Below, piece after piece: positions 52,200 through 60,400 of a DNA stretch of 64,000 nt (its first letter is position 1; the number at the start of each line of letters is the position of its first letter). This stretch comes from Bryum argenteum (taxonomy: Eukaryota > Streptophyta > Bryopsida > Bryales > Bryaceae), in the NCBI GenBank assembly GCA_037043015.1, contig CM073325.1, positions 17,525,001 through 17,589,000 of the forward strand, read 5' to 3'. The position numbers and the translations under genes are program-made. The notes beneath the pieces are model-generated. The model searched no databases, was not told the origin of the DNA, and saw only the letters and a list, made by a program, of their open reading frames with translations.

Positions 52200-53060
52200 A
52201 ATACCCATTGTATGGGCCAAATGTCAAAATTCAACGTCTTGGACGACGACTTGAAACTTTGAAAAGTCATAACCTTTTCATCTCAAGTCCGTTTTTCACA
52301 AAAAATTGTTAAGTTGGACCCCTAATCAAGTCTAGTTTGTGTAATGAAAACTACAAATCTATTCAATATGGTATGGTTCTCAAACATGGGGCATGTTTGA
52401 CTATCGCAAGTTAAGTATATGAGATCAAAATTAGTTAATGGGAACTTGTTCTACATGAGTCTGTATGATCTTAAGGGTGATGCGGTCATACCAAGGCTAC
52501 TACACCAGATCCCATCAGAACTCTGAAGTTAAGCGCCTTTGGGCCGGAATAGTAATCCGGTGGCCATCGGGATTTTAGCATTACGAACGGACACTTCATT
52601 CATGCCGGCCCCTTAGAAAGGACCGGAGTTTCTATCTATCTATCTTCTATCTATCTATCTAATATGATCTTGAGGTGAATATCAACAACCCTCTAGTTGA
52701 AACTTTTTAAATCCAAATAATCTTGATATCATGAGATTGATTTAAAAAACAACCAAAGCACATATATATTTAGACTTTAAAAAGAATAAACCATTGTAGA
52801 TAAAACACTTGATTCTTGAGGAGCTATTTTCTCCTTCATCCATGTTTGGATTTCAACCCTATTTGTTAGATTAAACCCAATTTGTATCTAGATTCTGTGG
52901 TAGGAATATCAACTTAATGCAATGATATTTGAAGATATGCATGTATTTTAGTGTAGAGGGGTCATGTTTGAATTAAATCTCTTTCGTAAAACTGGAGGTA
53001 GTTCTCATTGTTGCATGGCCATTCTTTGGGATAAAAAATTTCTTCACAAATGTTTCTTAG
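52200..53060 (+). mobile_element. Repeat family A copy, host of a nested SINE
   Basis: Landmarks GGGCCAAATGTCAAAATTCAA, ATCAAGTCTAGTTTGTG, GGGGCATGTTTGACTATCGCA and, after the SINE, TCAACAACCCTCTAGTTGAAA follow family A order. The SINE at 52476-52662 splits it at the TATGATCTTAAG site. The right end is eroded. Confidence 0.6.
52476..52662 (+). mobile_element. 5S rRNA-derived SINE, 187 bp
   Basis: The first ~80 bases match plant 5S rRNA: GCGGTCATACC, AGATCCCATCAGAACTC, GAAGTTAAGCGCCTTTGGGC (the 5S A-box region). The match ends near AGTAA, before the normal C-box. From 52556 the sequence switches to a body shared with the SINE at 59599 (TCCGGTGGCCATCGGGAT and onward) and ends in (TCTA)n. Target duplications TATGATCTTAAG (52464-52475) and TATGATCTTGAG (52663-52674) flank it. 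The RNA polymerase III promoter of 5S genes is internal, so such heads can drive SINE transcription. Confidence 0.85.
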
Positions 53061-59586: not shown

Positions 59587-59598
59587 TATCCCTAATGG

Positions 59599-59968
59599 AA
59601 GGCACCACAAGCCTTGGCTTGGTGGTTAGGGCTTGGGCCCCCAATGAGGAGGTCGTGGGTTCTATTCCCCATGCCGGCGTGGTGCTCACCACTATAGTCC
59701 ACCCAACTATTGTGGGGGGTCTTTGGACCTTGTTGTATGGGTACCTCAAAGCCCTTTGGGGGGATACTATGTCAAGTATCTTCAAGGCACTAGTAACTAG
59801 GCTAGAAACTAGCGTAGTTATAGTGTCCACCCTCGAGAGGGGGAAGTAGTATTGTTCAAATTTCCCCTTGTCCGGTGGCCATCGGGATATTAGCATTACG
59901 AACGGACACTTCATTCACGCCGGCCCCTTAGAAAGGGACCGAAGTTTCTATCTATCTTTCTATCTATC
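59599..59968 (+). mobile_element. tRNA-derived SINE, 370 bp
   Basis: The head has pol III boxes: A-box TGGCTTGGTGG at 59615-59625 and B-box GGTTCTATTCC at 59658-59668, with correct spacing. A unique body of about 200 bases follows. From 59871 it shares TCCGGTGGCCATCGGGAT through CCGGCCCCTTAGAAAGG with the 5S-headed SINE, then a (TCTA)n tail. Perfect 12-bp target duplications TATCCCTAATGG (59587-59598 and 59969-59980) prove retrotransposed insertion. Confidence 0.92.
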
Positions 59969-60400
59969 TATCCCTAATGGCATCCTCAATCTATACGTTA
60001 CATAATTAGCCTTGCGAACAGCATTTTTGTCCGGCAACAATGACTCTTTGCCCTAACCTTGCGGGCAAAGGGATTGTACTCTTCGAGCCATGCCACTTCT
60101 CCTCCTCTAGCCGGTGTGTTTGTCTTCTTTCTTGGAGCCTGAAATGTGGACGGTGGAGAGGATCAACTAAAAATGTGGATGGAATCACAAAGTCTATTGG
60201 TTTTGCCAAGACTGCGGCATCTACGAAGTCTGTTGGTTCTGCCGAAATCTATAGAGACTGCTACATCCACATCACCGTGGAATTGTCCTTTGTGTCTTTT
60301 AGCTTGGAGCAGGTACTACGTAACGACCTTGCCATATTTATGGGACAAATTATTCCCCTCCAAATGCATGTGAAGGGGTATTTTTCCATTTCAAGCTTAA

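Follow-up and report, generated by a model that had tools for sequence, protein, structure and literature searches.

Composites of 5S rRNA with SINE and LINE 3′ Ends in Bryum argenteum Probably Arose by Recurrent Template Jumps of a LINE Reverse Transcriptase

Introduction

A stretch of 64,000 nucleotides of the Bryum argenteum genome (C5:17525001–17589000, referred to here as the window) contains two short elements in which one 3′ body is preceded by different Pol III heads, a tRNA-like sequence in one case and 5S rRNA in the other. How a single body came to carry two unrelated heads is the question raised by this locus. Pairs of 5S- and tRNA-headed SINEs are known as finished families, and their origin by template switching has so far been inferred. 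The two elements, the dispersed 5S copies and the LINE 3′ ends related to the body were searched for in 258.8 Mb of the genome.

Results

The tRNA-headed SINE of the window (59587–59980, + strand) is flanked by the target-site duplication TATCCCTAATGG, which was read from the sequence at 59587–59598 and is repeated exactly at 59969–59980. The tRNA-like head (59599–59672, likewise read from the sequence) contains an A-box-like motif at 59615–59625 and a B-box-like motif at 59658–59668, which were assigned by eye from the box consensus; ARAGORN found no tRNA in the element, and the tRNA model of Rfam likewise gave no match up to an E value of 10. The head is followed by a central region (59673–59821) present in full-length copies, a LINE-type structured 3′ RNA domain (59822–59946) drawn with a closing stem and three hairpins and aligned with eight LINE 3′ ends, and a TCTA-repeat tail (59945–59968). 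At least 40 nearly full-length copies with 97–100% identity were found (40 scored of 3080 candidates), and the matches listed included five further partial ones. The element is short, full-length copies such as L011, L020, L022 and L033 are flanked by duplications, and it is a high-copy SINE. At three places (C6:7285728–7286380, C3:24713574–24714274 and C10:8498153–8498699) SINE pieces adjoin head to tail, possibly as a result of SINE-to-SINE jumps.

The 5S-headed element (52464–52675, + strand) starts with a 5S rRNA head at 52476–52554 (RF00001, 65 bits), which is cut before the box C region, corresponds to positions 1–79 of the dispersed 5S copies and is 100% identical to other dispersed copies there. 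The 5S/SINE join is located at 52554–52556 with one or two bases ambiguous, and the 5S variant AGTAAT present in L040 bears on this ambiguity. The LINE-type 3′ part of the tRNA SINE, from about SINE position 273, occupies 52556–52630 and is followed by a TCTA-repeat tail (52631–52662). The target-site duplication TATGATCTTAAGG at 52464–52476 pairs with TATGATCTTGAGG at 52663–52675; 12 bases were scored with one mismatch (p 0.007 versus 300 random flanks). Two unrelated RNAs are thus enclosed in one duplication, the arrangement of a template-switch chimera. When the whole 5S-headed element was used as query, only the window copy and L010 reached the head (40 places listed, 1458 candidates).

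In agreement with the preliminary description, the 3′ bodies of the two elements were nearly identical (93% over 101–105 bases by BLAST, from TCCGGTGGCC to the TCTA tail), their heads were unrelated (52476–52554 being 5S rRNA, with no 5S match in the tRNA-headed SINE at E up to 10), and each element had a target duplication of its own. The reading of one 3′ body with two different Pol III heads is upheld. The further suggestion that the tRNA SINE carries a relic of the 5S box C found no support. The 5S covariance model gave no match in this SINE; the box C region aligned best with a part of the SINE other than the proposed stretch and no better than shuffles did (P 0.16), and the corresponding values were P 0.53 for 5S from position 81 on and P 0.26 for whole 5S. 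The supposed relic, GGTGGCCATCGGGA, lines up with TGTGGCCATCGAGG of a LINE 3′ UTR.

A set of 49 5S loci was compiled from the places listed by searches with the 5S head and with RF00001, plus L010; it is a lower bound, since both searches scored only part of their candidates. The 5S head alone matched many scattered places, where other sequences follow it (40 scored of 77 candidates), and RF00001 gave at least 46 matches at scattered places (47 scored of 8049 candidates). Since no genic 5S array was among the RF00001 matches listed, the reference 5S was read from the dispersed copies. At least 38 of the 49 loci were composites in which 5S rRNA is fused to a SINE or LINE 3′ end. The partner was the 3′ part of the tRNA-headed SINE in at least 31 loci and a 3′ domain of LINE type, ending in other tails, in at least six (L043, L053, L054, L059, L084 and L085). 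L044, the sole such locus of the 49, showed 5S joined to a 5′-truncated poly(A) LINE end with a duplication of at most 16 bases, of which the leading A bases may be poly(A), the tail anchor having been set by hand. Assignment was by reading for L043 (LINE-type tails) and for L010 and L087 (SINE; the L087 match is 34 bases long), and the other 11 loci had no partner assigned. L052, L081 and L093 have common flanks outside 5S, in which the 5′ flank of L082 also shares, which suggests that these loci are part of a different repeat containing 5S, perhaps a Cassandra-like one.

By our count, 36 of the 38 composites were distinct when the point where 5S ends, the linker and the point where the partner begins were taken together; every 37-base join string was unique, and so was every 5′ flank. 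In most composites 5S runs to its 3′ T-run, often with a short A-rich linker, and end-to-end joins with such linkers showed differences as small as one base. The last 5S piece ends at positions 57–65 in L010, L061, L087, L088 and L089, at 101 in L094 and at 79 in the window composite. Two 5S pieces were scored in four composites (L061, L066, L068 and L089), a further 5S stretch is present inside the linker of L056, and L057 and L018 contain pieces of other sequence; in L018 (around C3:7067405–7067508) an 11-base repeat flanks both the SINE 3′ part and about 65 bases of that sequence. The same join was found in L046 and L066 and in L055 and L095, and L046 and L055 formed a supported pair by their SINE parts in the tree described below (94/83), so that some composites, for example the L046/L055 subset, may be copies of one composite.

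Since it is one of 38 composites with 36 distinct joins, the 5S-headed element of the window is best read as a recurrent kind of copying accident, not as a second mobile-element family, and the initial view of it as another SINE with a swapped head is not retained. The possibility, raised at the outset, that one of the two elements is a singleton holds in part, the window join having been found once among the 38.

At p ≤ 0.01, the composite as a whole was enclosed by a duplication in 22 of 27 loci with a tail anchor and in 5 of 8 further ones of this kind, the 5S start of L068 being set by hand; L080, L091 and L095, without a tail anchor, stand outside these 35 testable composites. The eight composites without a duplication at this level were L056, L057, L059, L062, L065, L084, L089 and L094, with p 0.017 for L065 and L084. 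No duplication was found around the 3′ part alone when all 35 were taken; an earlier run on 22 loci, confined to those with a composite duplication at p ≤ 0.01, gave one (L058). The identities of the 5S and SINE parts correlated across composites (Spearman 0.68, n 30, from identities entered by hand, with the L010 identity and L029 left out). A tree of the SINE parts from 16 full-length composites and 17 simple copies (33 rows without L004, which is the same element as L047) showed no clustering, with 10 label changes compared with a shuffled mean of 11.2–11.3, 144–155 of 500 shuffles being as low; with 2 well-supported inner branches of 30, this tree says little. Of the features of a SINE3, the window element thus has the 5S head (Rfam RF00001), and a one-source family was not found among the 38 composites, its join occurring a single time there and the composite SINE parts being unclustered.

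Among the matches listed, the SINE part starts at positions 1–5 in 17 of 31 composites, at 245–277 in nine and elsewhere in five; the corresponding numbers for 27 ordinary copies were 9, 10 and 8. These starts were typed by hand (that of L010 by reading), and L018 was counted as ordinary though joined to other sequence. On the structure described below, the 245–277 class covers the region from immediately past hairpin one of the 3′ domain to within the 5′ arm of hairpin two. A duplication at the SINE start was absent from several of the 27 ordinary copies, and therefore not all of them need be truncations. The start classes common to composites and ordinary copies point to stops of the enzyme, and such stops are presumably where jumps begin.

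The search with the L053 tail (40 scored of 1261 candidates) placed four of 40 matches 6.4–6.9 kb downstream of an endonuclease match on the same strand, compared with one tail/endonuclease pair on opposite strands within 10 kb; among the 40 SINE places listed, none had a listed endonuclease within 10 kb. L071, one of the four pairs, encodes an endonuclease and a reverse transcriptase, with RNase H in another frame, and ends in the LINE-type 3′ domain. The 3′ ends of seven further LINE copies, chosen from 144 scored matches, were fetched by position, and all seven had the domain near the predicted place. One of them (L075) ends in TCTA, and the tails in this clan include TTC, TA, TTTA and TCTA among others. 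The SINE domain (59822–59946) showed 62–70% identity to the eight LINE ends, and its local alignment with L071 scored 93, as compared with 49 for the best of 300 shuffles.

On the drawn structure 91% of cells were paired versus 36–52% when it was slid. Both sides had changed in 14 of 26 pairs (shuffled mean 9.5), and the number of pair types, 26, was below the shuffled mean of 30.8; the structure was drawn on the same SINE and LINE sequences as were scored and is hence favoured. As judged from these alignments, the shared body is a LINE-type 3′ end with covarying pairs. The anticipated link to a LINE was thus substantiated in that the body corresponds to a 3′ end common to LINEs of the genome, a TCTA tail being present in one of them (L075). 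The domain was found in eight LINE 3′ ends; the best identity to the SINE among the copies compared was 70%, and the partner subfamily was not found among them.

Searching for the LINE with PF00078 gave at least 150 matches closely similar in length, which we take to be LTR-type elements, and was of no help. From the PF14529 list, L069 proved to be another kind of element, and the sequence of L070 did not reach to a 3′ end. L070 (C5:2175200–2180800), with the same kind of endonuclease, contains several NPGP motifs, e.g., DIESNPGP, which in our estimation resemble 2A peptides. Residues 1345–1438 of the L071 ORF gave a weak PF12237 (PCIF1) match (26.9 bits, below the cut-off of 31.1), and the related proteins P0015, P0022 and P0064 have a PF12237 domain in their records.

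Discussion

The composites very probably arose when a LINE reverse transcriptase jumped, time and again, onto 5S rRNA. The last ~145 bases of the tRNA SINE would derive from a LINE of this genome, namely from its structured 3′ end; with a tail of such origin, the LINE reverse transcriptase could prime on the SINE. The enzyme, presumably that of the LINE clan described here, would start at the 3′ tail of the SINE (or LINE) RNA, copy it and run off the 5′ end or halt, often near SINE position 245–277. Copying would then resume during reverse transcription on 5S rRNA, usually at the 5S 3′ end and sometimes internally, and the joint cDNA would go in as one piece. The window 5S-headed element would be one such composite, joined inside 5S. 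We regard it as an evenly balanced matter whether the LINE machinery captures whole 5S end to end, repeatedly and over a long time in this genome; should it do so, the opening step in the formation of 5S-headed SINEs would be on view dozens of times within a single species, with no composite yet shown as a family founder.

A true 5S-headed (or 5S–tRNA composite) SINE family propagating from its own 5S promoter would account for the group of end-to-end 5S–SINE composites with similar A-rich linkers, for the joins common to L046/L066 and to L055/L095 together with the pairing of the L046 and L055 SINE parts, and for the frequent presence of whole 5S. Such a family is nevertheless unlikely in view of the 36 distinct joins out of 38 and the unclustered SINE parts; moreover, other partners of 5S include a poly(A) LINE and at least three further tail types, and tens of 5S places among the matches listed stand against 3080 SINE candidates. 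The adjoining of 5S and SINE in the same orientation could as well be produced by SINEs inserted beside or into older dispersed 5S copies. The duplications, however, enclose both parts in 27 of 35 cases and the 3′ part alone in none, and the 5S and SINE parts show similar divergence, which makes insertion of this kind extremely improbable.

Ligation of 5S rRNA and SINE RNA before reverse transcription would explain that both parts are sense and that joins are end-to-end, it is among the mechanisms proposed for LINE-1 chimeras (PMC13174262), and it would leave much the same traces as a jump. The SINE parts, however, begin in the same place classes as the ordinary copies, and the linkers consist of variable A/T bases; RNA ligation is thus quite unlikely. 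Within this single genome, dozens of seemingly separate events lend themselves to comparison of their donor, acceptor and stop sites, so that the origin of new SINE heads becomes countable and testable, and the LINE 3′ domain with its covarying pairs is a concrete candidate for the recognition target of the enzyme.

Template-switch chimeras of LINE-1 in mammals (U6/L1, 5S/L1) are recurrent events, and, as in the Bryum argenteum composites, a small RNA and a LINE 3′ end form one insertion with duplications. The 5S of those chimeras is as a rule antisense and shortened, positions 46 and 90 being common points of truncation (PMC13174262), whereas in Bryum argenteum it is sense and mostly runs to the T-run, and it is joined chiefly to a SINE whose tail is structured and not poly(A). 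The WEIRD/Mg-SINE/MGL chimeras of Magnaporthe are similar in being bipartite and tripartite with SINE or LINE parts, with a 14 bp repeat on either side of one of them (PMC2104539), but the RNA and the host differ; here the RNA is 5S, and several loci have two 5S pieces.

Elements with 5S and tRNA heads and a common LINE tail are represented by HaSE3/HaSE1 of the insect Helicoverpa and, in vertebrates, by DeuSINEs and Ped-1/Ped-2 of springhare; for HaSE3 template switching has been proposed. They are described as families (PMC3272025, PMC3747384), whereas the present composites are single and differ in their joins. The tobacco TS SINE likewise combines ~100 bases of a LINE 3′ end with a simple-repeat tail in a plant SINE. 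It is nearly identical to its RTE LINE there (PMC3747384), as against at most 70% for the LINE copies compared here; a further point of difference is that the Bryum argenteum LINE clan encodes endonuclease, reverse transcriptase and RNase H and has tails such as TTC, TA, TTTA and TCTA. Among the open papers listed in the literature searches there was no plant 5S–SINE or 5S–LINE chimera, and the sense, mostly full-length capture of 5S in a plant genome looks like a new form of template-switch chimera.
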